Shown: positions 205 to 45,555 of the stretch, one piece after another
Numbering within the stretch: position 1 is the first letter of the stretch
How the letters are laid out: the number at the start of each line of letters is the position of its first letter
The notes under the pieces: model-generated
Told to the model about the DNA's origin: nothing
Seen by the model: the letters and a program-made list of their open reading frames with translations, nothing else
The model's database searches: none
NCBI GenBank assembly: GCA_011800805.1
Contig: MPNW01000116.1
Location: 18,803 to 82,802 of the forward strand
DNA from: Hirudo medicinalis
Taxonomy: Eukaryota; Annelida; Clitellata; Hirudinida; Hirudinidae
Direction of reading: 5' to 3'
Length of the DNA: 64,000 bases
Position numbers and translations under genes: made by a program

Positions 205-787
205 AATGTTTAAAGTAGTTTGAATTCAAATTTATGTTTAATTTAAGCAAGGAGACAATTGCAACAACAGAATTAGATGCATAATTGAATTGATTACATA
301 TTCTTTCGATAGCTTTAATTTTAAAGGCAATTTTTTAGCAATTAAGAAAAACAAATTGTTCGAGGCAAGTCAAATTTAGTTTTCTCTAAAAAAATGCTTG
401 CTTATATCATCTACTTCACACTTCATATCAATTCTCGAGTGAAATAAATAATGCCAATTTTATTTCAATTCGAGTGATTGCTACTTTAATTCAGAGCTTA
501 CGAAAATTCTGCTCTGAAAATACGTATTTTCAAGACAATGAAAAATTAAAAAATTCACAAAGCTTGCATTAAATTACCATAACTCACTAAATTTAATCCA
601 GATATCTTGTTTTTCATCTATAATAAGCCAAATGATGGACGAGTTAAAAACTACCTCGTTAGTTGATATTAAACATTATTTTTTCTTAATTATACTATCG
701 CAATTTTCTAATTTCACGAATGTACGCGTAACCAACAGTAGTTTCATGAAAATGTACAAATATTAATTACATACGATTTATTTTCAG
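202..787. other. AT-rich stretch, no gene seen
   Basis: No coding exon, RNA or repeat is recognisable on either strand. It is presumably intron or upstream sequence of the immunoglobulin gene, whose first visible exon starts at 788 after a TTTTCAG acceptor. No signal-peptide exon for that gene could be found here. Confidence 0.5.
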
Positions 788-3700
788 TTCTCGGGTCTAA
801 GCAGGATCGAAGAGCAATAGGTTTAAGCAACGAGCCCATTCCTTTGATTTGCGATGTGCCTGATTCTGGTCAACTTTCTATCTCATGGACAGACAAAGTC
901 TACAACGAGGATAATAACCCTAGCCTCATATATAATTCGTCCGTTGGAGAGATTGAGAGAAAGTACGCAGAGAAGGGCTTTTCTGTAAACGAAAATATTC
1001 TCTTCATCCAGGACGAAGTTCAGGACGCATCTGGGCACTACTTCTGCGAAATTCATTTTACAAACGAAACGAAGCTGACAGTGCCCTACGAGGTGCGAAT
1101 CATATGTGAGTTCCACTACTTCTATTACAACACAATCATTTTCTTCAGAATTTTCAGTTATATTGCAGGCAGGACGGAAACCATGTGGACACCCCGTAAT
1201 TTCCTGATAACTCGCTAAGTTATAAGTTCAATATTACTCAATTTTATACATAACTTTATTGTACACAAAACGACCTGTAAAATTTCAAATAAATTTAACA
1301 AGTAGAACTTGCAAAATATGTAAAATAGCATTTTACAGCCGTTTGAAAACCATGAGGACATCCTTATTTATATCCAATAAAACTTGAAATGTTTGATAGT
1401 TATGCAATCAAAATGCACTTTATGCAAATATTATCGATATATAAACCCAAAAAGAGTTAAAATTTAATTTGTAGTTTATAAATAAACTGGAGGTAAAATG
1501 TGTGACAAGGAGTGGGGGCAGATTGAGACCTTCAGACAAGCAAATTATTCGATCAGGGAAAGGATCACAAAAAAATTGGCAAAGAACTAAATGGATCCAA
1601 GACTATAGGCTAGAACTAATTAAAGGCTCGTGAGGATTATAGAACAAAAAATAATCATGAAAGACTCAAGAAACTTACGATTCGTCAGCAGAGACTCCTG
1701 GTAAGAAAGGCAGTTAAATTTTCAGCAAATCAAATTAGAAATGAACTTGATTTACAAATTTGTAAAAGTACATTGTTAAGTTATTTGAGATCTAGTGGTA
1801 TTTTATTATATGAAAAAAGATTAAAGATTTCAGCTCTTAAAAACCATCACAAGTTGGCAGGAGTGGAATGGACCAAAACCATGCTCCCCAACAGGCTGGG
1901 GCAATATTATTTTTTCAGAAGAGAAGAAATTTAACCTGGATGGACCTGATGGTCATCAGTTCTGGCATGACCTCAAGTTAGAAAAAGAAACATTTTTTAG
2001 CCGAAATCATGGAGCAGGATTGGTGACGATTTGGGGAGGAATTTCCAGTGAAGGATTAACTGAATTTCCCTTTCTGGATGGGGGACAGCCTTCAGCAGAT
2101 TACATCGAAGTATTAGAAGATCATCTCCTGCCTTTTGGGGAAGCTTATTATAGAAAAATTTTATTTTCCAGCAAGATAATGCCCCGATCCATAATTGACG
2201 AAGACATTTTTCCAGAGCAGAAATTTGAAAGTTATGAGTTGGCCAGCCTGTTTCCCAGACTTAAATCCTATAGAAAACGTCTGGGGAATGTTGTCAAGAC
2301 TGGTTTACAACAATGGAAGGCAGTTCCACTCCAAATCTGACCTGGAAAACGCCATTATGAGTGCCTGGAAAGAACTGGATGGAAAATTCGTAAAAACCTT
2401 AATAAAATCAATGGATAGCAGTTGTTTTAAAGTTATTGAGAATAAAGGAAACATTATTTCTTATTAATAAATTTTTTTTTTCTTGTTTATCGCGAGGTTT
2501 TAGTCATTTGCTATGATTTTTGAAAGTGTCTTTCATGGTTATTGGACGCCTCGAACTCACGTTTTCTGAATTTTTAAATTAATATGTGAATATATCTTGA
2601 CGAAAATTTAAGAGATAATCATAAATATATAATTACACAACATACTCAAATTTCTCCGCAATAAAATATTTGTTTAGCGAGTTATCACGAAGTAATGGTT
2701 TCCGTCCTGAATGTATATTAATAATCATTTCACATATTGGTAACAAAGTTTAGTTATGTTATTTGTATTCATTGTCAGCTGGACAAAGTTGTCTAATAAA
2801 TCTGGAAGTTATGGAAGGAGAGATTGTGCTCCTCCAGTGCAACTTCACCACATCATTCTCGGCTAACCCATTTTGGATTGACGATATATATGAAATCTAT
2901 ATAGGAGAACATCATTCTGAGTTTATGAATAATGTCTTGACAACACAATTCAAAGCATCTTGGAAACACAATGGAGTCATCTTTAGGTGCATGCAAGATA
3001 ATTTGGAAATCTGCAGCAAAAAGCTGGAAGTCAAATGTGAGCTGTGACCAAATTTTACATAACATATGTAACATATGGCATACGCATTGGCGCACTCTGC
3101 TTAAAGGGAACAGATTAGTAATTTTATATTCCTCAACTTACAATAACTGTTTAATTGTAAATACAAATTGTAAAAAAAATTACACAAGCAATTGCAGATG
3201 AGTTATTAAGTAAGGTAATAAATTCTTACAACTTTAGACAAAGTTAGAGGCATGTATTTACCAGAAGAAAACAAGACTGTTTATCCTGGGGACAACCTCA
3301 CATGCCAGGCTTTGGGCAATCCAATACCAGAAGTTATTGTGACATTGCCCGGTACTAGTTATTCAAATGCAAGCGGTAAGGGACGAGCAAGTTTACAAGT
3401 AGAGGAAGATCTAATGGGGAAGAAAATAACGATCAGATGCGAAGCATGGAATGAGTTGGACGGCATAATTGCCAGGCACACAAATGAATCACATGTCCTA
3501 GTTGTTGGTGAGTTTATCTAGATGAATATGATTAAATTTGGAATTATTTGGAATGTTTAAGCATTTCATATGCCTGTAATGAGAAGCTAGTTTGCATTTA
3601 TATTTAGCCGATCTATTGAGTGTCTTATATTGAGACCCGTCGTTTGGTACAATGGAATGTATAGTGCGGCTTTGTGGTAACTGGATTGCGAATACGGCAC

Positions 3701-7747: not shown

Positions 7748-8419
7748 TTACTGTTTTGCATATCTTCCAACATATTTGAAAACAGATTCAAATGATTTTC
7801 CAATAATATCCAAGAAATGCAAACCTAGAGAGGAATTCTGTTCAGTCTTGTAAACATCAGGAATTTTTCCAATTGAAGATGAAATCATATTGACTGTGGC
7901 ACATCCATCGTAAAGCCTCTTTTCATATTCTATGAGTTGCTCAAAAAATCCTGGGTTTGGTCTAATTTGGGGTCTCACTGCTTTCAAGTATTGGTAAGCC
8001 TCAAAAAGTGTCATACTTTTGTACTTCATCAGGTAGGCAATGCATATTGTTGCTGATCTACTCACTCCAGCCATGCAATGGACAAGTACACCATATGACT
8101 GGTTCTGAGGTAAATATGAACTGGTTTACTCTTAAAATTATCATTATTTCATAAGTAATGCCAACATTAAATTTTAACTAACAATGAATGATCTAATTTT
8201 GTCCGCGCATATGTCGAAGTATTGATGTATCATAACTTCTGGGTCGTCGTCAATCTCTATTTTGAGAATTTCCACTTTATCTATATTAATTGGTTCATTA
8301 GCCGTCGTCAGGTCTATGACAAGGCGTATGTTCCTAAAGTTTATATTTTGTTCGGTTACTCCTAAGATACCGGATATATAAAGATTTTCTAATACTCGAC
8401 TTGGCTGAAAATCATTCAT
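7748..8419 (-). CDS. Atypical dual-specificity phosphatase (DUSP14/18/21-like)
   Basis: Two exons, 8419-8184+1 base (ending 8183) and 8104-7748, splice in phase 0 at GTTAGT to CAG and give a 197-residue protein, the usual size of small atypical DUSPs. The signature VHCMAGVSRSAT supplies the catalytic Cys and Arg (HCx5R). The general-acid region lies in the first exon (EIDDDPEVMIHQYFD), and the conserved KAVRPQIRPNPGFFEQL helix follows the loop. Proteins of this family dephosphorylate Tyr and Ser/Thr residues, commonly on MAP kinases, in the cytosol or mitochondria. The ATG at 8419 (MNDFQPSRVLENLYISG) was chosen because it starts the domain as in DUSP14; the frame stays open upstream but without conserved sequence. 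The four-exon kinase gene lies just upstream on the same strand. The exact subfamily is not certain. Confidence 0.87.
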
Positions 8420-8920
8420 TTTGTCGCCAAGTTTGATTTTAAGATTGTTCCAGAATGTAGCCAGAGTTCCCGACGTTCCCGACGCAAAAGTAATAACGCT
8501 GTAATAAAGTATAATTCTAAGAACCCCCGAGAACCCAGCCCGACCATAGCAAATAGGAACATAGTATTTCAAAACACTTCACTAAAGCCTTCAAATTTGG
8601 TTGAACATGTGTAAAATAATTAACTGTCTTTTTAAAACAGTGAAATATAATTGTTTTTCTTTCATAAAATTGATAGTTTTTATGATTTTCTTTTTCACAT
8701 TTTCTCAGAAATATCTGTCGCTGTCTTGAGTTGAGAATCTGATTGAAAATGTTTTATAGTACGTTTAAAATAGTTACAAAATATATGATGCAGACGATGA
8801 CATTAAAACTATTGAATAATCATTCATTTGTTTTAATTATTAATTAAGGTTCAGCGCTGAGCAGACAAAAACGGAGAAACGTATACCTGGCACTGCTCGC
8901 GCCTGGATGATCTACAGCAG

Positions 8921-11900
8921 TCATTTTTCAGAACCCAAAGTATATTGTGATATATGGTTTTCATCTGGAGTTTGGCAATATTCTCCATACCATCTGGAAG
9001 ATCGTATGTCCGGAAACCACATGCGCCTATCTTCATCCAAAAGAATCCCTTCTATTAACCTCCTACATGAATTGCTACAAGCATTTGGTTCAAACTCAGG
9101 TCCGGCTTGTGTAGCCCTAACCAAAGCTTTTTTATCTTCTGTATTGAATGGCAATTCTCCAATTACCTGATGAAATTAATGAATTTGTTAATATTGTCGT
9201 AAATATTAATAAACCCAGTTGTCAAGGGTGACTTAAAATTATTTTAATGGTATTTGAGATTAAGTAGCCATTATCATTATTTGTCAGTTTCTCGCATATA
9301 TTACTAAACTTTTCATATTATCCCAATTCAATCAATAAATTTGAAATACCCACAAACACGTAAAGAATAATTCCAATGCTCCATATGTCCGCCATTTGTC
9401 CAACGTATGGAGTACCCGTGAGAATTTCAGGACAGGCATAGGCATAGCTGCCGCAAAAAGTCTCACTGAGTTTATATGCTCCATTTATTGGCAACATGTT
9501 TGATCTAGCAAAGCCAAAGTCAATAATCTGTAAGCACAAGATGAAACAAAATTATCAAGAAATTCATTGCACATATTAACTTTTTAATCGCCAGGGATGG
9601 TCGCACAACTTTTATTCCAAAGAAAACAACTTAGATTGCTACTGAATTAACTGAGAAAAAAAACATTTGAGAGTGCAACCACCAAAACACAAAATATTAA
9701 TTTAAAAGTTTATTTGAAATATTTTGGAAATGATACAACTTATTGATTACGATTACAATTACCAGGTGCAAATGTAGATAACTAGTTGAAAATATTAATG
9801 ATGCACAAAATTGCATTTAATTTTTTCTTGCAAATAATTTCGCTGCCTCTTAATCTGCTCTACTAAAATCATTGAATGTAACTTTTAAATCACCTCTTTG
9901 ATCAACAGTGTATCGTATCGTCATAAATGTCTCACCTAATAATTTTGTAATACTTTCTTGCGGGTCAACTGAACTTGCATCAATGATTTATTAAAATGCT
10001 ACATATATTAAAACGGTTCATTAAATTATGTTAATAACTCCTACTTTAATGTTGTTCTTTACATCCAAAAGAAGGTTTTCGCACTTAAGATCCCTATGTA
10101 CAATTCCTATAGAATGTAGGTATTCAACAGCATCACAAATCTGCTTGAACCAGACCCCAGATGCCGGCTCTGACAATCGCTTTGCCTTTCTAATTATGTC
10201 GAGCATACAACCCTTGTTTGCCAGTTCCATGACTAAATAAACCCTTGCATTGGTTTCGATGGTTTGGAGAAATGTTATGAGATGCGGGTGTCTGACCTGT
10301 TAAAGGTAAATAATGTGTCTATATAACGATATTGGAACCAAAGAGAAAGTTACACGTTAACAATTAGTTTTACACTGTACTCGTTACTTTTTAACACTTC
10401 CATCGTCAGATGATATTCTTCAAAAATGTCTATTTGTCAATAGATATTTCAAGTTAAAAGCTATTTCTTGAGCAAGTGCTAAAGAATTACTAAACTCATT
10501 GTTCGTGAGCATTTATGATACCATTACTTTCTCATTGTGGTGACTTCTTTTGAATAGGATTGGACAATGTTTGGATTTTGGAGTGGTTTATGACACAGAA
10601 ATTGGTCTCCTTAAATCAGTGTAAAATAATGTTATGTTGCATTAATAAAGGGAGGCATTGATCAAAAATGGGTCAATTGTTGGTGGCATTCGTCAGCACA
10701 TTTGTCACATTCGAATATAAATTACAAGTATTTGACCTGTCCATCAAAAGCAATTTTAGCATGAATTAAAGATTAGTATTTCGTAGAAATGTCGTCTGCT
10801 AAATCTAATCAAGAGACAGACCTGAACAATTCTGAGACTTTTAAGCTCATATTTCACCGTTATGCCAAGACTCCACCCATTCTCGTAAATATTTATTTTT
10901 AACAATAGAGGCCAGTCTGACTCAAGATATTAGTCTGAATATAGTTCGGACTGAATGTGTTTCGGACTAGGGCATTATAAAGTTTTGGTTCTTGCATGTT
11001 TTGAATGGCTTTTGTCAGCAACTTTCATTTAAAGTGAAATTTATTTAGATTGTAACAAGCAACGTTATATATTTTGCTTCATTAAACAATTTCAAATTTC
11101 TTGACCTTTTATGTTCACAAGTTATACTTCGATAGCTAAATAGTGAGTGATGTGACTTGCCGTTGACTTCCCAGCTTTAGCTCTTATTGTAAGTTTATAT
11201 ATATCCTCTACCATTGGTGAAATATGCATTTAAAGTTTATTGATGCCCAAAAGGAGTCATATAGTATGTATGAAATGCCGGAATTTTCAACTTTGATTCC
11301 TGGTAAATGAGGGTGTTTAACGTTGCAAAGATTTCGTCTTTCTCAATAAATGTGATTAAAATCGATATCATAATTTTCTTTTTGCATCATTATTACAAAG
11401 CCATTGGCATTATGAGCTGTTAAGAGCCAGTTACTCATAAATGTGCATTTGACTCTTGCAGATCTAAAAATAGTAAAGTATAGAGAAAAATCATGCTTGA
11501 ACACGGCCTTCAGTAATTCGTAAACAGTGAGGTGTAAGGAGAGTCCAAATAATATTTTTACAAATTCTCAAAATCATCTCTCGTCGCAAGTTTTCAAAAT
11601 AATCGATTGTTTGCGAAACGCATTTCTCGGTAGAGTAACATGACATATTCGGAGAAAAAAAGTTAACTTTCGTCGTTTTTCACAGCCATAGATGGAGGAG
11701 CCTTTGCCCCTATTTAACAAAATGTATTAAAGAATAACTTATTTGCTTCTCAGAGCGAAGGCGCTTTCTTAACCATAACCACAAAATCACCCAGCATGTA
11801 CGACTATCGATCTAACTTCAATTAGCGACTCGAGGTTATTAATAAAGCATAAGTCATTTGTTGCGCAAAGTTCATTTTTTTTTACAAATTAAACTTAAAA

Positions 11901-12355
11901 TCTGTTGCAGTAGTATTTATATTTAGACTAACTTTTGAATGATAATATTATTAACCTTTTCAATTTATTAATCTCCCAACCATTTATATAGCAGTTGCAT
12001 ACGAAAATTGAATCAATAAAGAAATAAATGTAGTTATGAATTACGATAATGTAAATCATTAGATATAACTCACCTTCTTGACAATGTCTATTTCTCTTGG
12101 GAGAAATTTATCCACATAATCAGATTTTGACTCTATTTTCGAGACTATCTTTATCGCCACTTTAGCATTGTGGCGGGAGGAATTCGCCAAAATGACTTTT
12201 GCGTAAGATCCATAGCCGATAATCTTTAAAGGTTCGTAGCCAAACTGTCCCCAAAGTATCGGCTTAACATCACTCAAGAATGTCTCCTCAATGGTTTCGC
12301 TCTCTTTCGATAGTTTCCTTCTTTTGGAAAAGTGTTTAAAAAATTTTCCACTCAT
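8921..12355 (-). CDS. TSSK: Testis-specific serine/threonine kinase-like protein
   Basis: Four exons, all joined in phase 0: 12355-12074, 10296-10045, 9527-9354, 9166-8921 (TGA). The product is 317 residues from the ATG at 12355, or 335 from an in-frame ATG at 12409. The kinase motifs appear in order: glycine loop [14 protein letters not shown] lysine, [11 protein letters not shown] typical of TSSKs, catalytic [19 protein letters not shown]-equivalent ACPE, and the DIWSIGIIL helix. All catalytic residues are present, so the enzyme should be active. TSSK kinases phosphorylate proteins in post-meiotic male germ cells and sperm; expression here is unknown. The basic N-terminal extension (KHFSKRRKL) is longer than in short TSSKs. 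The gap 10.3-12.07 kb is intron without recognisable content. Which TSSK paralogue it matches is not decided. Confidence 0.88.
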
Positions 12356-12409
12356 TTCCGGAGTCCTGGCTATAGCATTGGTTCCCTTTAACAATATAAT
12401 TATTCCCAA

Positions 12410-13132
12410 AAAGAGTTATGTCAGCAAACAAATTCTACTTCACTAACATTAATTTAATCAATTTAAATTCTTAAGTTGGAAATTCATATGCATTAATTCA
12501 TTGTTATTCTTAAAAGCAACTTGAGATGTCACTTCTTGTTTTGTCCCTTCAAATATTTTTAAAATCGAAAATTAATTAAGATTAGATAGACATTCGCATT
12601 CATAAAAAGTTAGGACTTGTTTACCAATAATATTTAAGACATTTGCAGAAAGCATGATTTGTGAATTCATAAAGGATAACTTTCAAGTGAAAAATTTTTT
12701 TTTTCTAAATTTTTCCAAATTGTTAAATGGGTCTAAATTTTTTAAATTATTACCTACGCAATTTATTTATTTAATTTACTAGAAGTGTTAAATTGTTTCA
12801 GTAAGTTGAAAAGAAAGAGTCAGCATAACTGGATTAACACCATTCTTATGACAAAACAAGCATAACCGATCTGCCAGAATACGTTGTGTCAGAATGGCAA
12901 TTATACCGAGTTAGCTGAGTCATTTTACGTAAACATTACGGAGAATATAATTTAAACAGCGATTTTACGTTGATGCTATTCTATATTATTGTTATATATA
13001 TAGTTCGATTTTTTCATTCTCACGATATCTTGAGTAACAATAATTTCATAAGTGAGGTTTTTAATCTCTGCGGTTCATACAGATGTTATTCCGAAAGCAA
13101 TCGATGAGCTTTTGGTTCTTTGATCATAATCA
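12410..13132. other. Intergenic, nothing recognised
   Basis: AT-rich sequence upstream of the kinase gene. It presumably holds its promoter, but no motif is clear enough to mark. Confidence 0.4.
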
Positions 13133-15934: not shown

Positions 15935-18900
15935 ATGAAATTTTCCTGCCACATGATTTTGTTACTGTTCGCCATATGTCCAACCTTGACCTTCGGAGAG
16001 GAAAACCATCTCTTCAGAAACCTCAGAAGCCAGCAGAGATCAAAGTGGGAGACACCTTGTGGTCACAGAGAACGTATATCAGAATTTTATAGTCACCAAT
16101 TGAGTTTTTCCGCCGAGAACGGCGATCGAACTACCTTGAGCAATGTGATAAAAAACGTTGGTGATATGGCTCAATGTCTGACCAGTAAACTTTTAAGTCT
16201 CAAGACTGTCTACGTAAGTAAATTGATTACTTTGAAAACATTGTTAAATTATCAGGAATCAATCACCAACGATTAAAATAATGCTAGCGAATTTTTGTAA
16301 CGAAGTAGTAAAATTGCTCTCCCTGACCAAGACTTTATATACTCCGGTTAAATATAAGTTTTTCGACAGATTGACATTTTGGTGTCAAGGATTCACCTAA
16401 CCCTAACCCAAGGATTCTCACCTAGCCTCCCAAAAACATTTTGAGGATCCCCCAAGAGTTCCACCCCCACCCCAACCTTCTTTTGTATATAACAACCAGA
16501 AAACTAAAATCCAAATGTTAGGGCCTCGGCTCGTTGATCTTTGATTTATTTTATCGAAATATTTTAACCCATTGGTTAGCTGCTGTTATCGTCTTATTTT
16601 TTAAATGTGTAAAATGAAGAAGTTAGATCAATGTTACCTTGATAAAGCCAAAACAAGGTCATCCCATTAATAGGGCTGAGTAAGTTCACCAACTGCTCTT
16701 GATTAACACCACCAGTGTAAAAATTCCTTATAAATTCCTGATTCAGATAAATGTAAACAATTAACAATCGCGTTAGCCGCAATTTCTTTAATAAAGAATA
16801 ACAACGTTCACCCGTCCTATTATTTTAAGGTATACCCAAATGCTCAACGCTTCTTCTCGTTTCAGGCACAAAAACGCTTCAACGATTCAGAATTGATCAG
16901 AGATTTGGAGAGTCACATGTTTCAGCTCAACGGTAGACCAAAACCTCGAGGGGTAAGAATGCAGTTGACATTTGTATAATTAGATGAAATCTTGAATTGA
17001 TGTTATCATTATTTAATTACAATCTTTATTAATAATGTAACGGAAATAACGATTTTAGCCAAATGCTTTAAAAAATACTGTCTAGCTGAGGAGAAATAAA
17101 ATTTTTAGTGCTATTACATCATGTTAAGCAATTATTTATTTAATTCTAATGAAGTAACTGCTTGCATTACAAGTAATTTTCGTGAAAACAAATTTTAATA
17201 ATTAAAAAAAAAATTGTCGATAATTTGTCGCACCCCCGAAAATAATTTCAACATTCAACTGGACAGCTAGGACAAAGTATGTCATCATCCATAAAACAGT
17301 GCCTTGTATTCCTGGTTGATGTCTAATTTCTTTCGAGCTCTCGTAAAATTTTACAAAAAATATAATTATAATAATTTTATACAAAAATATTTTCACACAA
17401 AATTATTAATAATAATAAATAATTATTATTATAACTATTATATTAAAATATATTAATTCTAATATTAATTAATTAGGTAAGTATTAATCGATTATTAATT
17501 AAGAATTATTAATAATATAATACAATTATGATATTAATATTTAATAAAATAATAATTTTGTAATAAAATATTTTCAAACATAGTAATAAGTATTATTATA
17601 TATAATTACAATATATACTACTAATAATAACTATTTATAATTAATAACATCAATTAGTAATTAATTAACTAACTAATAATTTATTGTTATTACTTATTAT
17701 TTTGTTTGGAAATATTATAATTCTAATATTACTTATATCAGGTAAGTATTAAGCGGTAATTAATAAACAAATCATTAATAATAATTAAATATTAATATAA
17801 TTATAATTACATACTAACATATTAATAATTAGTGATGATTGATAATTAGTTATTAACACAATTATAATTAATGCTTATTAATTAACAATTACTATTATTA
17901 TATAAGAATTACAACATTTTCAAACAAAATAATTAATAATAATAATAATAAAAGTTAATTTGTAAGGTGCCATGTGCATAGTGTCAGAGGCGCCTTATGT
18001 TTTTCGTTTTTCTGACTTCAGGTGACATTTTAAGAGCTCCGGGGAAGGTTGAGCTCTTATGAGGAGAGGTAGTGCGTTCCAGAGGCAGGGGAGGCAGAGG
18101 CAGAGAAACCTCTGCTGACAAGGGATGATTTGTTCACTGGTTGGCGTAATTGAATGGCGAAAGATGAACGAAGACCAGGTGTGTGGCGGCAGAGAGTGAG
18201 GTGATGGAGATAGGGCGGATTGGATGACGTAAGAGTTTTATAAGTCATTAGGGTGATTTTGAAGATGATGCGATTATGGATCGGCAACCAGTGCAATTGC
18301 TTCAGGCAGTCAATGTTATTAAGGGTTAGGTTAAGGAGAACAAGTTTAGCAAGTTTATTTTGTACGCGTTGCAAGGAATGGATCAAAGAGGCAGAAGTAG
18401 TCCAGTAGTCCAGGCGAGAGAGAACTAGACTACGTGCAAGGGCAAAAGTTGTGTTGACAGAGAGGAGCGGACGGATATGCCGAATTGCCCAGATAAGGTC
18501 AAAATCCTGTAATCATTTGACGATGGAGGCGGAATGTTCTTTAATGCTGAGGTGAGAATCAAAAGTAACACCGAGGAGTTTAAAAGTAGTAGAATCAGAA
18601 TCGTCAGAATTAAATAACACTAAATCTTAAAATGTCACTAAAAGTCCACTTCATAATGATTCATAGCATAAGTTTATATCATTATCCATTAAGCCACGAT
18701 TTTAAGAATAGCAAATGTTTAAAAGTAAATTTATCAAGATAAAAGGTCAACTAATTATTCGAGTTGTTTTCACATCTACGGCCGAAGCCGTTCCAGAAGA
18801 TTTGCAAGTGCTAGAAGAGTCTGTCTCTGAGTTATCCGTAGCGAATTGCTACGTTGAGGTAAATGAGTAAGATTGGAATCTAATTAGTCGCCTTATTGAC

Positions 18901-20010
18901 GCGGCTAGGAACTTTTCTTATTCTGAGGTATTAAATATACATAATTACAATGATCTTGAGTCTTGTAGTAGTTGTAATAAATTTTGCTTTTGAGGAAACG
19001 GTATAGATCAAAACTTAATAGATAAAAACTCTATCCACTCGTATATAATGTTAAAATGTATTTTCAATTTTGTTACTTTATTGTTTAAATTTAAAAATGC
19101 TTTGCAATTCTTGGCACTATATCTGAGATTCTTTATTCTTTGCTTTTCCGACTTCTCCGGATTTGCCTTCCAATGATGTCCTCAGCCATAGTAGTATCAA
19201 ACTTTTTTGAGTTTATTCATGACTTAAATATAAATTTAAAATAATTGGCACTTTTTAGATATTAAACTAAGCTAAGCGACGGTAGACACTGCTGCGTCTC
19301 TATTAACTGTAATTGTCATTATTTAGTTTATGTAGTTATCTATATAATAACAGAAACTAAATATAAAATATTTAAGTGCTTTTAGCAAGCCTAAACTTTA
19401 TAAAATAATTACTACTGCTAATGAAATTAAGTCTGCGCAAAAGTATTTACAGAAAAATAATTTTACAGGTCTCACAGAGAACCGATAGTATCTTTGAAAT
19501 CCTTCGCATCATAAGGCTAAGTGCAGAAGATGTGGCTCGTATGGTAGCTTACTGGGAAATGGCCGAAAACGGCGAAAGATTCGATGAACCCGGAGAAACG
19601 TTTGAAAATCAGTTCAGGACAATTGCAGCTGATTCACAATGTGGACTATATTGGATCCTCTGCCACATGCACATGATCATGGAAGAATTTGATCAGCAAC
19701 CTTATTCCATGAGGGCAATGGTAGAAATAAAGCTAATAGAGTAAGTTTTTTCAGAAAATGTAATTTTTTTTTAAAGAAGGGATGTTATGGCTTAAGCTCT
19801 GAAAATCTTATTAATTTTATACTGAAGGATCAAAATAAATCAAAATAATTTTGATTCCATCTAAAGCTGTAAATGTTCGACAGGCAAAATGAAGTGGCAA
19901 ATTCGAGAGCAGCTCGACACTGGAGAGACTATCTTGTCATGGTCTGTCTACACAAGCTCTTGCTGAAACTAAAAATGGAAATGCAAGTTGCTCAAGATTC
20001 TCTGAAGTAA
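15935..20010 (+). CDS. Secreted all-helical protein, candidate four-helix cytokine
   Basis: Exons 15935-16213, 16866-16952, 19469-19740 and 19884-20010 give 254 residues ending in TAA. Introns 1 and 2 are phase 0, intron 3 is phase 2. Residues 1-21 form a clear signal peptide (hydrophobic MILLLFAICPTLTFG, cleavage before EEN). The mature chain has no recognisable domain but is rich in amphipathic stretches: about 44-93, 100-115, 124-155, 165-213 and a C-terminal helix 221-254 (RAARHWRDYLVMVCLHKLLL). Mature cysteines are at 42, 81, 180, 187 and 234. A signal peptide, about 230 mature residues, a basic C-terminal helix and no transmembrane segment resemble IL-6/CNTF-class cytokines. This is inference from pattern, not a detected homology. 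A possible extra in-frame exon lies at 18739-18858. Other secreted helical proteins remain possible. The ATG at 15935 was preferred to an earlier in-frame one because it starts the signal peptide. Confidence 0.68.
17400..17944. repeat. Extremely AT-rich intronic sequence with an internal duplication
   Basis: Almost pure TAATTA-type sequence within an intron of the helical secreted gene. The block starting near 17455 (ATTCTAATATTA, then AGGTAAGTATTAA) reappears near 17720, so a unit of about 265 bases has been duplicated and has diverged. No coding content. Confidence 0.6.
17945..18635 (-). mobile_element. CR1/L2-like LINE, 3' end with (ATT)n tail
   Basis: The minus strand encodes the reverse-transcriptase C-terminal region: FKLLGVTFDSHLSI, ALARSLVLSRLDYW, LQRVQNKLAKLVLL and LKQLHWLPIHNRIIFKIT, with one in-frame stop upstream of the last open part. 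It ends with the family 3' end and an (ATT)n tail at 17,941-17,950. This is the best preserved member of the family in the window. It is truncated at its 5' end and lies in an intron of the helical secreted gene. Confidence 0.9.
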
Positions 20011-21254
20011 GAATCAAAAATCAAATGGGATAATGAATATTCAGGAAGTGGACGCTGGGTAATGAAATGAACAAATATTTACTCATTTTCTTTGTGGTTT
20101 GTCCATTTTCCCCGTAATAATGTTATGTCGGCAAATTTCTGTCTGATTGCTGTATCCTTCGAGATTCTGGTATTTATAAAGTCGAACGGACCAAAATCAC
20201 CCTCGAAATTTGCGAAACTTTCATTAAGCGATTCGCCAAAAAAAGGAGGTCGTAAAGTTTAAACATCTTGGTCCGACTTCGAAAGAGCGAAGAGCATGCA
20301 TATGCCGAAATTTAACAGCTTTACAACAGTTAATCAGTATTCTTCTTAATGTACAATGAATTTATTGTTAAACCTCTTTATGAAGATGTTGTGGACGTAA
20401 ATTTAATTTATCAATTTATGTAGATGTATTTGCTGTTGATTTCCATGTTTAAAGTCAAACTAGCAAGTGGTGCTCAACGAACGCCGACATTTAGCCGACG
20501 ATTGTGCGATTCTAAGATTGGATTTTTTTTCATATTTGAAGTTTTCGATTTAAAAAGAATATCATTTAAATGTTAAAAAGCGACCAATGGCATCTTGATT
20601 TGATTTTCTCTCCTTTATAAAACTTGAATGTAATATCCTAAATATTTACATTTTCTCATTTTCTTTAATTGTTTGACGCTTTGTGTTCCGAATATCACAA
20701 TCGTAAAAATAAAATATTAAATGTTATTCGGAGATTACGATATGTCTGAGCTATTGTAAGCTCCTACCTATGAATAAAAATTGATTCAATCCATATACAT
20801 TCTAGGGAGAATGACTTAATGGTCCGAAAGAATTGAATAATAGCACATTTGTAGTCACCGTGCTACGTAAAAGTTTGGGAAAATCGTAATAGGAAGCAAG
20901 ATATTGTATGAACAGTTTAGCAGATAACAATGTAGCAGTAAAATTCCATTTGAATTTGCTATCAAATTGAAAGGAGTTTGGTCAAAATCTCACGTTGACT
21001 AAAAATACCCTGAAATTTTTCAAGGCTTGAAGAGGTGATTTTTTTTAACGTCATCGCTATTGTTACAGTTATTTGATAAACTGAACCGAGGGATAGTCCC
21101 TTATTATATGCTTACTAAGTCTTTATTGTTATGTCTAAGGGATTTTTGTTAGATGTTATGGGAATTTAACGCATAATAATTTCAGCATATTATTAGGAAG
21201 TTAGAAAATATAGCGTAAAAATCCTGACTTAGTAAAACAGACGGTAATACAATT
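20011..21254. other. No gene recognised
   Basis: Sequence downstream of the helical secreted gene. No exon, RNA or repeat family could be supported on either strand. Confidence 0.4.
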
Positions 21255-37045: not shown

Positions 37046-37275
37046 TTACATCCGGCAAGCTGTTTTCCTGAAGTTTGATAAATCGTTCGCCAGGATGCAC
37101 TTGCTTTCGATTTCGTCGAAGTAAAGGTCCTTAGGACATTTCATGATTTCAGCATCTCCACTAGAACAGGTTATATACGACCGACATTCAGTCGGATGGA
37201 TGTACACACCGTCCACTTTGTTTGCACAGGATGGTTCCATTAATCTATATTGAAATTGAATTGAATTATCTAGAT
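37046..37275 (-). CDS. CBM14 (peritrophin-A) chitin-binding exon D
   Basis: A TTTACAG acceptor (phase 1) opens a 75-codon exon ending in TGA (...ACRM). It contains one peritrophin-type chitin-binding module with all six cysteines: SCANKVDGVYIHPTECRSY, ITCSSGDAEIMKCPKDLYF and DEIESKC. Such modules bind chitin through surface aromatic residues and are usually attached to chitinases or matrix proteins. The upstream partner exon is unknown: its phase does not match the chitinase donor at 41,950 directly. It could be the last exon of a small secreted protein or an alternative end reached through an unseen exon. Confidence 0.75.
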
Positions 37276-37639
37276 CTGTAAAATTATAAAACAGTTTCAT
37301 AAATTTTCGGAAATATTTTAATTTTATTAATATCAAAATTTCTTTAATTTTTTATGTTATATGCTTATATGGCATTTTGTATTACTTGTATTACGCTTAA
37401 ATTTAGCTCGATCCATAATATTTCCATGACCCATTTTTTAAATGATCTTTCAGTTAGCGACCAAGTCCGTTAGGCTAACTTTCCCTAAAACATTCTTTAT
37501 CGTCATAATTAAGATTTGTCAGAAAAAAGTGCACTTCACAGTGAATGAGGTTCGAGCTAGGAATGTTTGATTTATTATAAAGTTTGCATTCACCATTATT
37601 AAAGGAGTGAACTGAATTTGAACTTGAAGAAGAATTGCA

Positions 37640-37894
37640 TTACTTTAAGCAAAATGTCTTTCTTTCTGGACCCAATTCGTTTTCATAGATGCAGTATATT
37701 TTATTCGTGTCATAAAACGTGTTCATGGGACAGTTTGTGAGGAAGACTCTACCACTGTAGCATGTTACAAATGACCTACAATCCTCTGGGTTCGCGTGCA
37801 TTCCGTTTTTACGTTTCATACAAAAATTGTCTTGTACTGGAAATAATGTTACAGGAACTTCGTTATCATCACTTAAATCAGTCGTGAGGTATTT
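37640..37894 (-). CDS. CBM14 chitin-binding exon C
   Basis: A TTTTAG acceptor (phase 0) is followed by 84 codons and TAA. A short acidic linker (TTDLSDDNEVP) leads to a six-cysteine chitin-binding module: FCMKRKNGMHANPEDCRSF, VTCYSGRVFLTNCPMNTFYD and a final Cys, then ERKTFCLK. It has its own stop, like exons B and D. Its phase-0 start matches the phase in which exon A would end if the one-base gap in A were absent, so A followed by C may have been an ancestral arrangement. Confidence 0.75.
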   Translation of the reverse strand, partial: KYLTTDLSDDNEVPVTLFPVQDNFCMKRKNGMHANPEDCRSFVTCYSGRVFLTNCPMNTFYDTNKIYCIYENELGPERKTFCLK

Positions 37895-39451
37895 CTAAAA
37901 TGCACATTTTTTTATGTAATAACATTTTAAGAAATTTCCAAAAAGTGATAAATAACGTCGGTAAGGGTCCCTTTGTGATACATTTAAATGGAGAATCAAA
38001 CTCCAAGACAGCATCAAGAAAGACGTGCCTTTCCTTCAATATCAATACTTTTACGGACAAACCGAGTTAGATTACTAGTACCTACGGTTAGAGTTGTGGT
38101 GCAGCATGAAAGGCTAACGATGACGTCGTTAGAAAGCTTCAGTACGTACTACGAAAAAGACTTTATACACAAAAGATAGAAACTCGAATCGAATATCTAC
38201 GCGCAAAACGAAAGGTACATAGTCTGCAACTTCGCCATCGATTCAGCTACGACCGATAAGGGTACGGAATATGAAAGATTACGAAATTCGGATGTCAAAA
38301 CGATACTCCAGAGTGTACCGGCAAGCTAATTCCCATGGTAGCCGCCTGCAACTGGAGGGGAATCATACAGATTCTGGAGGGGATTCGGCCTGGCGAGATG
38401 GCGTCTGGTGGGCATTGTGATCCAAACCCGCAGGACACCAACAAGATCTGTAGAGCCCATAAATGCAGCGGACAGAAATCAAGAACATTTAATCTTGGTT
38501 ATTAACAAAATTAAAATGAACTCATTATATAGTTGCACAACCTGTGCGATTTTTAACTGAGATTCTTGCACCTCACGATAAAGCAGGGTTAGTTAAAACG
38601 AATAACCTGAAAGAATAACAGTTAATGAACCTACCCTTCGATGAAACGTGGATAAATAAAATGATCAAAGTGAATTTCGAAATTTTCATGATAACTGATT
38701 TTAGATTGTTTGATTTGGTGACGTTAAACACAGTCTTGTCTAACAACGGATTTATTAAAACTGAATAGATATAAATTAATTAGTGTTGAACGAGCAAAAG
38801 GAATATTTCAAGAAGTCAAGATTTCTTACGTTCCGTTCTACGATAAATATAATTTAAGAGAAAGTATTAAAAAGTTCTTGCCCTTGCTCGATGTACATTA
38901 TATAACGTAGTTCATCCCAACGACGGACGTTTATTTTTGTTTGCTCTTTAATCGATTGCTTTCTGCAGATCACCGGTTTTTCAGATAGAGCGATATATAA
39001 TTCGACAAAGAAATTTACCAAATTGCCATTTTTATAAAGTCATTATCTAAAAATTATTTCTAAAAACTTTGAATGGGTCAGGTTATGGTTCTGGTTTAAA
39101 TTAATTATTGATGTAAATGCATATACCCCCGTTTACTTCATAAACAAAACACCGAAGAATAAAATAAAGGTTGGTTGGGAATGTGTTTCTGCCGATGCCT
39201 TTACTGCTTTTGGAAGAGGTCTGAAAATGTTTCGTTTTCAAAGTTAATTCTTTAAAGAGATGACTGAAAAATTTGGTTTTAAAGTTATGCCACCGCTCGA
39301 ATGCCAAGAGACGTCTCCCGGGACTTCGACTTTTCAGCAATGCAATTGTCAGAGTATTAGCTTCCAAAATTAAAGCAATTACTTGAATGTGCTAAGCATG
39401 CATAGCGCGACCTTTATATAATGGGCGATGATATAAAGACAAACAGTTTCA
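37895..39451. other. No gene recognised; possible mobile-element remnant
   Basis: Between about 38,200 and 38,450 the sequence is clearly richer in GC than its surroundings and reads in pieces like the tail of a retrotransposon protein (TEYERLRNSDVK, GIIQILEGIRPGEM). This is too degraded to name. The rest shows nothing. Confidence 0.3.
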
Positions 39452-39731
39452 TTACATTGCACACTCCTCCCTCCTGGCTTGAGTGAGATTGTTCCCCCAG
39501 TTGCAAACTTTCTTCACGTCGTCAAAATACTCTCCACCTGGACAGTCCATCCCACTGGCTATTTCATTGGAGCACATTAAAAACCGCCTACAATCATTAG
39601 GATATGCGTAGATCCCATTTGCTTTTCCCTTGCAGTTGGGGTCAGGAACTTCAGTCATATTTTTCTCTTCAAGTGACGGCCTTGAAGTGGTGGTCCGCCT
39701 AGACTTACTAAATTTACTGGATTGAGTCCCA
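39452..39731 (-). CDS. CBM14 exon B with Ser/Thr-rich linker
   Basis: A CTAACAG acceptor (phase 2) is followed by 92 codons and a stop. The first about 35 residues are a basic Ser/Thr linker (SKSRRTTTSRPS), the kind that joins a chitinase catalytic domain to its binding domain. The module follows: NCKGKANGIYAYPNDCRRF, LMCSNEIASGMDCPGGEYFD, KVCNW. The phase-2 start fits a GTACGT donor at 41,949 in the last catalytic exon of the chitinase upstream, so this is the best candidate for a chitin-binding 3' end of that gene. Confidence 0.78.
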
Positions 39732-40217
39732 CTGTTAGTGAGAAAAAGCATTTCATTGAAAATAGAAACAAATTTATGGTGCCTCATATAAATATAAAGT
39801 TCAATTTATTTCGATCCTGACTATGAGAGGACTGTATAATGGTTTGATTAAATATCTCAGATTAGATTTGTTTTTAATCCCTAATAAAAGCACATCAGTA
39901 ATATATGTATTTATTAATTTATGATGATGCAACTAAAAACGAGGGAATCGACTGATAAAGTAAATGACTATTGAGAGCTTCGTTTGATAAGCGAGTGATT
40001 TATTAGAGAAGGGGATTTGGGATTTGATTTATTTTGCAATGCCAACTGGTAACATATAGCGTGAGGAAGAGCTCTTGATATAAGCCTTGAAGCAGAAGGC
40101 CAAATTGTTGACAAATTAAAGCAGAAGTCATTGATTGCACATAAGCAATGGTTAATAAGAACAATTTCAATACTTTTGAGGGAAGCATTCGGTTTTTCTG
40201 GCAAGTGTAAGATCTAC

Positions 40218-40403
40218 CTTCCAGTTGCAGACCCTCTCCAACTCGTCAAAATAAAGTCCATCATGCATTTAACGACTTGAGCTATGCCACTGCTGCAGAC
40301 CACGAATGATTCGCAATCGGCTGGATTCACATATTCTCCATTTGGCATTCCATCGCAGTCAAATTCCAATTCATCAGATGATTCATCTGATTCAACTGGC
40401 CCG
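40218..40403 (-). CDS. CBM14 exon A with apparent frameshift
   Basis: A TTTTAG acceptor (phase 2), an acidic Ser linker (ESDESSDELEFD), then the first half of a module (CDGMPNGEYVNPADCESF, VVCSSGIAQVVKC). After that Cys the expected DGLYFDELERVCNW reads only in the next frame, so one base is missing near 40,264 relative to an intact module. Uncorrected, the exon is 186 bases with no stop and is phase 2 on both sides, so it could be spliced between the chitinase and exon B. The donor is AAG/GTAGAT. Either the copy is damaged, or the assembly has a one-base error. Confidence 0.65.
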
Positions 40404-41714
40404 CTAAAAGCAATTACTGAGATTAGTACAGCAAAAACTGCCTATATTTGATATATAGGGTAAAACTGTGTCTATGGACACTTATTTCAAGAACTGTAAT
40501 ACAATTTGACCATAAATTACAGTGCGAAATTACGAAACTTGAATAAAAGCATTGAAATGGTTCAGAAACTTGCCAATAAGAACTTTTTGTAAGAAAAATG
40601 TTTTGTTAACAAAAATTTGTAAAAGTATAAAAAAAGTATCTTCGGATTTAATCATATTTCAAGCTTCCTGTTCGCAAGTGTTCAAGTGGCTTTTGATTGA
40701 TTTTCAGCAGGTTGTTAGCTATGGATTCTCAGAAAAGACCGGTTACCATTGGAAAAGACCTAACCCTGGTTACCGTTGGAAAAGACATTGGAAAAAGTCA
40801 TTTCCAATTATGAAAGAACTAATTCTAACTCAAAATTTACCGAAGACTTCAAAGTTAGCCGACATCAGATGTCAATATAGCGAAGTTAATGTCAAAGTGT
40901 CTGAATGGTTCTGCTTAGCTCAGGGTTAGGGTTAGGTTAGGGTTAGGGTTAGGGTTAGCATCTACCAGTAACAAGTCTATTGCTGGCAGCTCCGGTTGCA
41001 AAGGAATTGAGCAGGACAATTTATATCTGTTCTTCCTCCAGACTTTTTACGAATGAAGTTGCGTTGGACGAAGGATGTGAAATCGCACGAGACAATGATG
41101 CTTGTTTCAATGAAGCTGAACATGAAGAAAGCACTGTCGAGCCTTACAACTGATCATTTACCCCCATGAAGCCTGGAATAAGACATGAGCTCTTATTCTG
41201 TGCCAATTCAATGCCTTTCCTAGAAGACATCATTTGAAATATTAAAGACAAGATCTGGAAGGCAAGGGTTAGGGACACAGAAAGGACCAAACTTACTATC
41301 AAAACATTTTAATAAATTATAATAGCTGCGCGGTTTCTTCTTATATCTTGTCAACTAATGTTAATATGTTGTCAATTTGTATGGGTTTACTATTTCCTTT
41401 GGTTTAACAGCTTGATTTATTCACAGTTTTTACTGCATAGTAAGGTAAAGTTGTAAAGTCTCTAAAACTTTTCGGTTGATAAGAAACGAATTGATTGGTT
41501 ACGCCCAGAATGCATAACTACTTTACGTGGCTTTCTATTGGATTTCTGGGCCCTCCGATTAATGAATGAAACATACTAAAACCTCAGCTAATTTTGTACG
41601 CATAATCGAAAAGCCTATCAAATTATTTGCATAACTGATGTTATCGCATTCTTAATCAGCGAAAAATTTTGTTATCGTGCGTTTTCACCTTGCGAGGTCG
41701 AGAAATATTAAATG
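40404..41714. repeat. Interstitial TTAGGG tract; otherwise no gene
   Basis: Between 40,920 and 40,958 there is a run of GGGTTA units (one a shortened GGTTA). Just before it a stretch of about 27 bases is duplicated in tandem (GGTTACC.TTGGAAAAGAC, 40,740-40,790), inside a 125-codon open frame with no recognisable domain. Both look like repeat-derived sequence. Confidence 0.6.
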
Positions 41715-44700
41715 TTAATTGCAATGTGGAAATACTCGCTTTTTTTGATCATCATTTCTTTCTGGACTCTCACTGGTAGAAACCTCAGCTTTGTCACTGT
41801 TTAAAAAAATGTCACTAAATTTTATTTTGGTGTATAAATAATTACAATATATCGTTATATATATATAGTTATCGTGTCCTACCTTAGCGTTCATCTTTTT
41901 AACAAGTGTTAACATAAACAATACTAAAGCTAAACCAACGATGACGTACCCCTGAAAATTTTGATCAGTTGCATAGTTTAGGGCATTAAGTAGAGGAAAC
42001 TTTTCCGACCCACAGGTGCCTCTGAAATCATCGAAAGACAACTCCCACAAGAACCACCCACCCAAGTTTTTATTCTTTAAGTAATCCACCTGTGTTATTA
42101 AAAAGTAATTTACTATATTTTAGTTTGAAATCTTGTAACAAAAATCTGACACGAGATGTTAACAAAATTTCCTCCTCCTATAAAACTGGCGTGTCCTACT
42201 CTTCAAGTTATGCTGAGGACATTAATTAAATACTACTACAGTATAAGACTGGTGTAATGACTCTTGGAGAATTTTTGAAAATTTTTCAATTCTCAAACTC
42301 ATATTAATGTTGTCACGGAATTAGAGCTTTAATCGTTAAGCTTTTACAAATGAACGGAATGAACGCACCCGTATTATTAATACTATTATTAACAAGTACA
42401 AAGACAGTCTCCGGCAATAAAACGAATGAACAAAGCCAAATCTCAGCGTAATCAACAAATCAAAACTAAGCCTTATTCCCACAGAGTTAAATATCTTTTA
42501 CAATAACATTAAATGTTTTTATATCTGGAAATCATCCTAATAAGGCTAGAACATTCCGTGCTCGAGCAATGCCAATTAAAAGCACTTTTTAGTGGTCTGA
42601 TCATCTACAATCTGATCACTAATCTAAAACGGTGGTTGATAGAAAGTTAATTAGAAAATGAGGGAGATCATTTTTGTCACATTAAAGAATCAAATGTTTT
42701 ATTGAAATGAATGAATGCTAGTGATAAAAATAGTTTTTGCATAAAACAACATGTAACTGTTGAATAACGAGCTGTAACACTTGATGCTCACAATCAATTC
42801 AACACATCTCTGCAAATTAATCCCTTCCCATATAAATGTAGAATGAAAATATCGTGCTAGAACTCCATGAAATTATGGTTTTGCAATGTATTCGACATGA
42901 TTCAAACGAACAATGCTTAAAGGGTTACTTTAATGAACGTAGACAGAAAAACCACATAATTGTTGTGACTCATTAAATTTTTTTGTAATTAAACAATTGC
43001 AATGTTTTTTGTAGAAACTTTCTAATTAAGACAAATGTTAATTTTTCAAGCCTTAAAAATTATTCAAAATGCGATAAAAAGTTGCTCCATTATGGTCTGG
43101 TGATTAATCTGACTCTGGCAGCATATGTTCTAGCCTCGTAATGGAAGCAATCATAACGTAGCGGACGTGACATTAATACACATACACATACACACACTAA
43201 TGATTAGATTTGACATCAATGAAGGAAACGAACTTTCATCGTCAAACTTTTGACGTTATCATAACCAATCCAGGTAGAGCCTGATACCACGTAGGGAGCA
43301 TCCTGTTCCTCAATCCACCTTTTCTCTGAGTTTACATCATTAACGATGGGACATATCTAAAAATGTCATTTAAGGTTCTGTAAATTATTTTTCTGAGTAA
43401 TAAATTGTAACTAATACATACATACAACATACAGTCGAGATATTACAGAGATTTTCTTTATTTTTGCAAACAATATTATTAAATATTATTTATTATTGTT
43501 CTGATAAATATTTCCAATCTTAAATGACTTAATAATTATTATTAGCAATAATTCTTCAGTATTAATCGCCGCTCTTTTTCATTTTTACCTCGTAATACGC
43601 AAGTATCCCACTGGAACCTGTGTGCTTTCCTGCCTGGCAGCCACTAATTGCCTCTGCTCCCACTTCCGTGTTGATGGAAGAGGCTAAAGTGAAGCAATTT
43701 CCATAACTAGCCATGCCCACAAGAAGTTTACTAGCGTCGGCACCATTATCTATCCAGTAACGAACGGCCCAGTCCTACTCAGTGCAATTATTTAAAATGT
43801 AAGACAAACTAATTGTTTGCATTTCAAAATTAAAATAGATCATACCACACTCATAGTATCGTTGCCAATTGAGTAAAGGGGCGAATTATGACCGGTGACT
43901 TTATCAGAGGCTCCGTGAAAACCATACGTCATAATGTTTATGAAATCTAGATGCCTTAGAAAAATGTTTAATTGAAAATTTATATTTGGAATTAATTGAT
44001 TTTCTAATTTTGGAAATACGTCTCCGAAGATACGTCGTTTTGGAGAGGAGCAAAGATGGGTAAAGGATTTTGAGTTTGAGACAAACTATCAAAGGAAACT
44101 TTTCGAAAAAAAAATATAAAAAGTTGACAAAAACTACTTAAAATAACTGAAATAATGTCCCTATATGAATCGTATAACTTTTGTTTTGCTACTTTCTTAC
44201 TTTCCGATGACGTCAATTTCGTATGCCGTTTCCAGGTAATGCTCTCTAGCAGCTACAGCCGCGCTGAGTAACAGCTTTGACCTGTTACCAGACAATTGCT
44301 CTCCATCGAAAGCTTCGCGGAGTTCCTGTCGTACAAATTTAAATGATAATTTTAACAACCAGTCGATAAATGATAATAAAATAAAAGATTCCAAGTGAGT
44401 AAAATATTAACAAAATTAATTTTGTCACTTTAATTTCTTTTCTTTTAAATTTTGTTTAGTCGCGATTGTAGGGAAGACATCGTTGGCATACAGGTTAGCT
44501 TAGAGGGTTGCGTTCCTGCGTGCGGCAGTGAAAGACTACATTCGTTATTTGTTATATGAACAACCCACCCTGTACCGCCAGAGATGCTCTCGGGAAGCGA
44601 CGCTATAGAAATGGTCGAGTGATTATAGTGCTTTCACATTCGTTATGGACGCATAAAGCTCAATACAGATACTGTTACGTAATTACTAATGAATGAGATC

Positions 44701-45555
44701 TACATATTACCTGAACCAAATGACTAAACTTTTGCTTATCATCCGGAGGACTGCCTCTGCTCCCGGGATACTCAAAATCCAAATTTAACCCATCAAAGTT
44801 ATGCAATCTGAGGAATTGAATTGAACTCGTGACAAAACTAATTCTGCTTTCCTTAGTGGAGAGCATGACGGTCATATCATTAGTGCCTGCACTCCATCCT
44901 CCTACTGCCAGCAATACTTTCAGTTTGGTATTAATTTTCTTGAGATCTGTCAGTCGGCTATACCTGGCATTTCATAATTTGATTTTTATTAATTTGGGCG
45001 TGCTGTTATATTGGATAATAATTTTAATATTTCAAATTTGAGCAAATGACATATATAAGCTATATCAAGTTTCTTCATGTTAATCCATCATTTATGGCAT
45101 TTCGTGAAAAACATGATGCCTTACATCCCTTTGCTCCATTCTGTTGGTTCATCACTCCATTCAAAAGCTGCTAAGTTATTGCCCGCTAATTTGGCAAAAG
45201 CCATAATTACATGGGAGCATAGCCTGGAGTCTAAATCCTCAGGAAGGAATTTGAATGCATTTCTATACTGAGACTGGTTGGTATAATAACAAACTCTCAT
45301 GTATTCTGGAAGTTTTAGATAATCTTTAAAATGTACTAAAACGTTTTAGATATTATTTTAAATTTACTTAATATTGCTATTCAATTAATGATGCCAGTTG
45401 ATCATTTATTGCGATTCTTTGACTAAGAGCAAATGACATTATAGTGCATAAGAGCCATTATTATTTAGAATATGTAATAATTAAAAATAATTCTTGCAAC
45501 CCTTTGGAGAAACACAGGCAAGCAATGCTATAAAAAATAACTTCAAACTAGGCAT
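41715..45555 (-). CDS. GH18 chitinase, membrane-anchored or alternatively ended
   Basis: Exons 45555-45501 (signal peptide LKLFFIALLACV), 45293-45125, 44963-44711, 44325-44201, 43954-43846, 43774-43589, 43356-43234 and 42089-41950 or 41883 join in phase. The TIM barrel reads VCYYTN at the start, LLAVGGWS, FDGLNLDFEYPGSRGSPP, INIMTYGFHG, LLVGMASYG and NLGGWFLWELSFDDFRGTCG. In DxxDxDxE the second Asp is Asn, as I recall for Ym1, but the catalytic Glu is kept. Chitinases cleave beta-1,4-GlcNAc links of chitin. After the barrel, the exon either continues into a membrane segment (YVIVGLALVLFMLTLV) or uses a GTACGT donor (phase 2) to reach the tail exon 41796-41715, or perhaps CBM14 exons A and B. 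Unspliced, the frame stays open to 41715. Length about 410-465 residues. Confidence 0.88.
42095..43230. other. Chitinase intron, little content
   Basis: No exon is seen. At about 43,095-43,140 a sequence like TGGTCTGGTGATTAATCTGAC recalls the box A region of the family B tRNA-like repeats. A short CACATA run lies at 43,180-43,197. Confidence 0.35.
44487..44690 (+). repeat. SINE-like repeat, family A
   Basis: It starts CAGGTTAGCTTAGAGGGTTG and contains the ACAACCCACC/TGTACCGCCAGAGATGC section and tail (GGACGCATAAAGCTC, AATACAGATAC). This is one of the longest copies. It lies in the chitinase intron between exons 3 and 4, opposite in orientation to the gene. Confidence 0.7.

Follow-up and report, generated by a model that had tools for sequence, protein, structure and literature searches.

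The window, a 64,000-nucleotide stretch of Hirudo medicinalis DNA, appears to carry a single-locus leech gene that encodes a secreted, soluble, mostly α-helical and fast-changing protein, known from this leech and one other species. We put the probability of this reading at roughly 55%. As judged from its sequence, the protein would be an orphan of the leech lineage, secreted and helical, for which the family and sequence searches gave no described family. It would leave the cell and act outside it as a helical-bundle factor, binding a receptor or some other protein partner via the surfaces of its helices, and residues 50–63 would form a variable loop between two better-kept segments. Among possible partners, a cytokine-type receptor would be the most specific candidate; the main alternative would be a partner in saliva or reproduction. 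If the protein is not a cytokine, it would be an ordinary secreted protein restricted to one lineage and relevant to leech biology.

Gene Model and Coding Evidence

The gene model consists of four exons on the + strand, joined at GT-AG splice sites and encoding 254 residues, with an ATG start codon at 15935 and a stop codon at 20008–20010 (Table 1). An earlier note on this DNA had described the same four-exon, 254-residue gene, and the ATG, the stop codon, the splice signals and the reading frames all agree with that description. Intron 2 also contains an antisense open reading frame fragment (18060–18512), which we take to be reverse-transcriptase-like.

Table 1. Features of the gene model, in window coordinates.
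Feature	Position	Strand	Intron phase	Splice sites	Remarks
Exon 1	15935..16213	+			Signal peptide (predicted), residues 1–21; N-terminal segment with C42; predicted helices 48–62 and 65–92 (long)
Intron 1	16214..16865	+	0	gtaagt...tttcag	
Exon 2	16866..16952	+			29 residues; helix-prone NDSELIRDLESHMFQL, then RPKPRG; frame score best of six
Intron 2	16953..19468	+	0	gtaaga...ttacag	
Candidate cassette exon	18788..18858 (start 18788 or 18797)	+			Keeps the frame with an early end of exon 2 at 16932
Exon 3	19469..19740	+			About 90 residues; C180, C187; frame score best of six
Intron 3	19741..19883	+	2	gtaagt...gacag	
Exon 4	19884..20010	+			C234, stop codon and the final helix-prone segment; best-scoring frame of six
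First AATAAA 3' of stop	20708..20713	+			Pattern match only; others at 20773 and 21349

Codon scoring ranked the frame used as the best of six in 4/4 exons. Non-coding windows scored as high in 5.5%, 2.8%, 1.4% and 7.7% of cases, each value being modest. The scoring was trained on 1003 codons from 12 hand-chosen segments of the window (five with a Pfam match, five without, and two outside the Pfam scan), against a background that disregards stops. Stop codons make up 9.0% of the triplets in introns 1 and 2, and an open stretch of 93 codons is therefore improbable by chance (p ≈ 1.5e-4, and ≈2.0e-4 for 90 codons, both uncorrected for the number of places examined). On this sequence evidence, we regard the four-exon gene at the locus as real.

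Residues 1–21 resemble a signal peptide, with a charged start, a hydrophobic core and a plausible cleavage site (TFG-E). Beyond residue 25, the highest 19-residue hydropathy mean is 1.14, the sole strong segment being at the start of the protein, and no membrane segment is therefore expected. These calls, made from hydropathy and inspection of the sequence, bear out the clean signal peptide and the lack of a transmembrane segment that had been predicted previously, and the protein is probably secreted. The mature part, from residue 22, comprises 233 residues (27.5 kDa, pI 6.5) and includes five cysteines (residues 42, 81, 180, 187 and 234), an odd number. The protein has one N-glycosylation motif, at residue 99.

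Relatives and Conservation

A search with the full protein yielded two proteins at E ≤ 1 among 144 candidates, P0001 and P0002, and the frame of exon 1 is open in both. P0001 is identical over all 93 residues of exon 1, and its assembly also carries an identical exon 3, on a contig of equal length. P0002, which comes from another species and is the sole cross-species relative, covers exon 1 without gaps and is identical at 69/93 residues (24 differences). Searches with exons 2–4, and with exon 3 alone, gave P0003 as the only match; because this is the window's own exon 3, exons 2–4 are without cross-species support. In the leech's own genome, the search found one locus, with four matches that all fall at C116:34737–38809 (E ≤ 10). 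Pfam gave no families at E ≤ 10 for the protein, and the search of PDB sequences gave three chance-level matches.

The start codon at 15935 is preferred over an in-frame ATG about 40 codons upstream because the upstream stretch varies in both relatives: P0001 differs at 3/40 positions there, vs. 0/93 after 15935, and P0002 differs at 18/40 columns and has a three-residue gap in addition. The similarity to P0002 outside exon 1 amounts to 22/40 columns upstream and 12/16 in the read-through of intron 1, the start of which is as similar between the species as exon 1. Exon 1 therefore has no clear edge in conservation over the sequence on either side of it.

When an equal number of changes was introduced in a neutral simulation (2000 runs), exon 1 stayed stop-free in 16% of the runs. 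Simulated changes reached the observed BLOSUM62 mean in 6.9% of the runs and the observed share of positive scores in 25%, which places conservative replacements weakly above the neutral expectation (p = 0.069 by mean BLOSUM62, 0.25 by count). Since the simulation values are modest, exon 1 alone is weak evidence of constraint.

These observations bear on the possibility that the gene model is partly wrong, with an exon missing or spurious or a cassette exon extending to 18858, or that the locus is decaying. Such an explanation would fit the similarity of the exon 1 flanks between species, which is about that of the exon, as well as the candidate cassette exon in intron 2 and the lack of cross-species matches for exons 2–4. 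However, the splice signals and phases are consistent throughout and the frame is the best of six in every exon, and we consider error or decay quite improbable.

The changes in P0002 are unevenly distributed over exon 1, with 10/14 in residues 50–63, 4/28 in residues 22–49, 5/30 in residues 64–93 and 5/21 in the signal peptide. A scan for clusters of changes gave p = 0.004 for a window of 14, 0.040 for a window of 20 and 0.093 for a window of 10, these being the three windows tried.

A variable loop and a distribution limited to the leech lineage would also fit a secreted helical protein that serves in the saliva or the reproduction (cocoon or seminal fluid) of the leech, one that changes fast because its partner changes. 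The animal does have anticoagulant families. The hirudin domain was found in two pieces, as two matches over the curated cut-off, and antistasin gave 46 matches among 115 candidates; both were silent in the 14 control genomes (0/14 each). Hirudin, to our knowledge, occurs in leeches only, and the two families together identify the animal as a leech. Salivary families, however, commonly come in multiple copies, and the present gene occupies a single locus, vs. the 46 matches for antistasin. A salivary or reproductive role for the protein is doubtful, and somewhat more so than the cytokine role considered below.

Models and Fold Search

Exons 1 and 3 were modeled separately with AlphaFold. The model of exon 1, made with a three-row alignment, reached a pLDDT of 54.6 and a pTM of 0.35, and has helices at residues 4–13, 28–38, 48–62 and 65–92. 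Exon 3 alone reached a pLDDT of 56.1 and a pTM of 0.44, with helices near residues 125–136, 141–155, 167–177, 182–198 and 203–209. Both low-confidence models contain helix only and no strand, and with pLDDT values this low, they indicate that the protein is helical but point to no particular fold. The helices in the exon 3 model are short and broken, splitting both presumed long helices, which argues mildly against an arrangement of four long helices.

Foldseek returned no matches in the PDB at E ≤ 0.001, and 16 matches for exon 1 and 12 for exon 3 at E ≤ 10. One of the 16 was a helical cytokine, bovine interferon-gamma, at a noise-level E of 3.9 and a probability of 0.03; none of the 12 was. 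Structure prediction and a fold search had been proposed previously as a check for a cytokine fold; on exons 1 and 3, they gave helices only, broken in exon 3, and no significant Foldseek match.

The earlier note had also described the helical stretches as amphipathic. The hydrophobic moment indicates moderate amphipathicity, but for the last helix (residues 216–254) it is low, at 0.03 at 100° (0.15 for residues 222–245), and lends no support to a clean amphipathic helix there. A simple propensity profile also flags strand-prone stretches within several of the helical segments.

Comparison with Helical Cytokines

The most specific function considered for the protein is that of a class I-type helical cytokine, which would form an up-up-down-down four-helix bundle, dimerise a receptor of the gp130/Domeless or CRLF3 type, and signal through STAT. 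We consider this a fair candidate function, albeit an unlikely one. Less likely again is that the protein is the annelids' first helical cytokine, a four-helix ligand whose gene follows the vertebrate class I exon plan and whose receptor, of the CRLF3 or gp130/Domeless type, signals through STAT in the leech. A literature search over titles and abstract openings found no annelid class I cytokine.

Several features favor a cytokine. By hydropathy, the protein would be secreted and has no membrane segment. The exons encode, in order, the signal peptide with a long helix, a 29-residue segment, helical pairs with a short link at about residues 156–166, and the last helix, a layout that matches the four-exon genes of helical cytokines, and two of the three introns are in phase 0. 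IL-2 and IL-6 genes have such a four-exon layout, and the introns of class I cytokine genes are usually all in phase 0, although this is not strictly defining. In fish, the genes for IL-4/13 comprise four exons separated by three introns in phase 0 (PMC5440397), while those for type I interferons contain four introns of that phase (PMC4929537). The leech genome also contains STAT_bind, with two matches over the cut-off at C445. The IL6Ra-bind and JAK FERM_F2 families had no match in the genome; neither matched any of the 14 control genomes either, so the lack of a match here is no evidence of absence.

Other features count against a cytokine. No cytokine was found among the Pfam families or the three PDB sequence matches, and the fold search gave only the single noise-level cytokine match described above. 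The phases had been correctly given previously as 0 for introns 1 and 2 and 2 for intron 3, the last of which speaks against the cytokine class. Both of the long helices presumed for exon 3 are broken up in its model, the number of mature cysteines is odd, and the 233 residues of the mature part are long for a class I cytokine.

Compared by description rather than by fold, the class I cytokines (IL-2/IL-4, IL-6/LIF/CNTF and Drosophila Upd) are like the leech protein in being secreted, helical and fast-evolving, and in having four coding exons, a phase of 0 in the first two introns and a short link within exon 3. They are unlike it in that no sequence relationship was found and in the phase of the third intron, and the leech protein further differs from them in its broken exon 3 helices, its long N-terminal segment and its odd cysteine count. 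A second comparison, again by description, is with CgIFNLP of the oyster Crassostrea gigas, which is likewise lophotrochozoan and of secreted type. This interferon-like protein is said to match class II helical cytokines in structure, in a table that lists the annelid entry as 'not identified' (PMC9756803).

A Possible Cassette Exon in Intron 2

Seven phase-compatible cassette exons of 60–200 bases with a GTRA donor were counted in intron 2, without a shuffled control, and six of the seven end at 18858. The candidate stretch listed in Table 1, which was first chosen by eye, has a frame score of 0.27, the best of six. A short form of exon 2 would use a weaker donor after 16932, so that 16933–16952 would be spliced out. 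Joined to the cassette exon, this form would yield a product of 272 or 269 codons including the stop, depending on whether the cassette starts at 18788 or 18797, with an overall gain of 18 or 15 residues and a sixth mature cysteine. Alternative splicing of this kind, in which the frame is kept, is possible. The stretch had a single match in the genome, which rules out a repeat.

Surroundings of the Gene

At the start of the window, three open stretches on the + strand (742–3518) have an immunoglobulin-type look by eye and no Pfam match; between them lies what is presumably a mariner-like transposase fragment (1620–2464). On the − strand, 7751–8578 holds a piece of a dual-specificity phosphatase, with DSPc at 7751–8125 (Pfam), and 10024–12415 holds protein kinase pieces at 10024–10299 and 12062–12415 (Pfam).

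Repeated six-cysteine segments that look, by eye, like chitin-binding domains of the peritrophin type lie at 37049–40408 on the − strand, adjoined by a piece of a GH18 chitinase at 44678–44971 (Pfam). Chitin_bind_4 had no match in the genome, and none in the 14 control genomes either, so that alone it is weak evidence; together with the hirudin and antistasin matches, it led us to reject an arthropod origin of the DNA. A short tandem repeat of AGGGTT, a telomere-type unit, occurs at 40922–40958, internal to the contig.

Two COX1-like loci were seen elsewhere in the assembly. One (L009, on contig C456) is open under the invertebrate mitochondrial code and has a repeated segment, as well as flanks that do not look mitochondrial; it is likely a broken nuclear copy. 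The other (L008, on contig C459) is a bacterial-looking COX1 with COX2-like and COX15-like neighbors, and by these labels, assigned by eye, C459 would be a contaminant or symbiont contig in the assembly.
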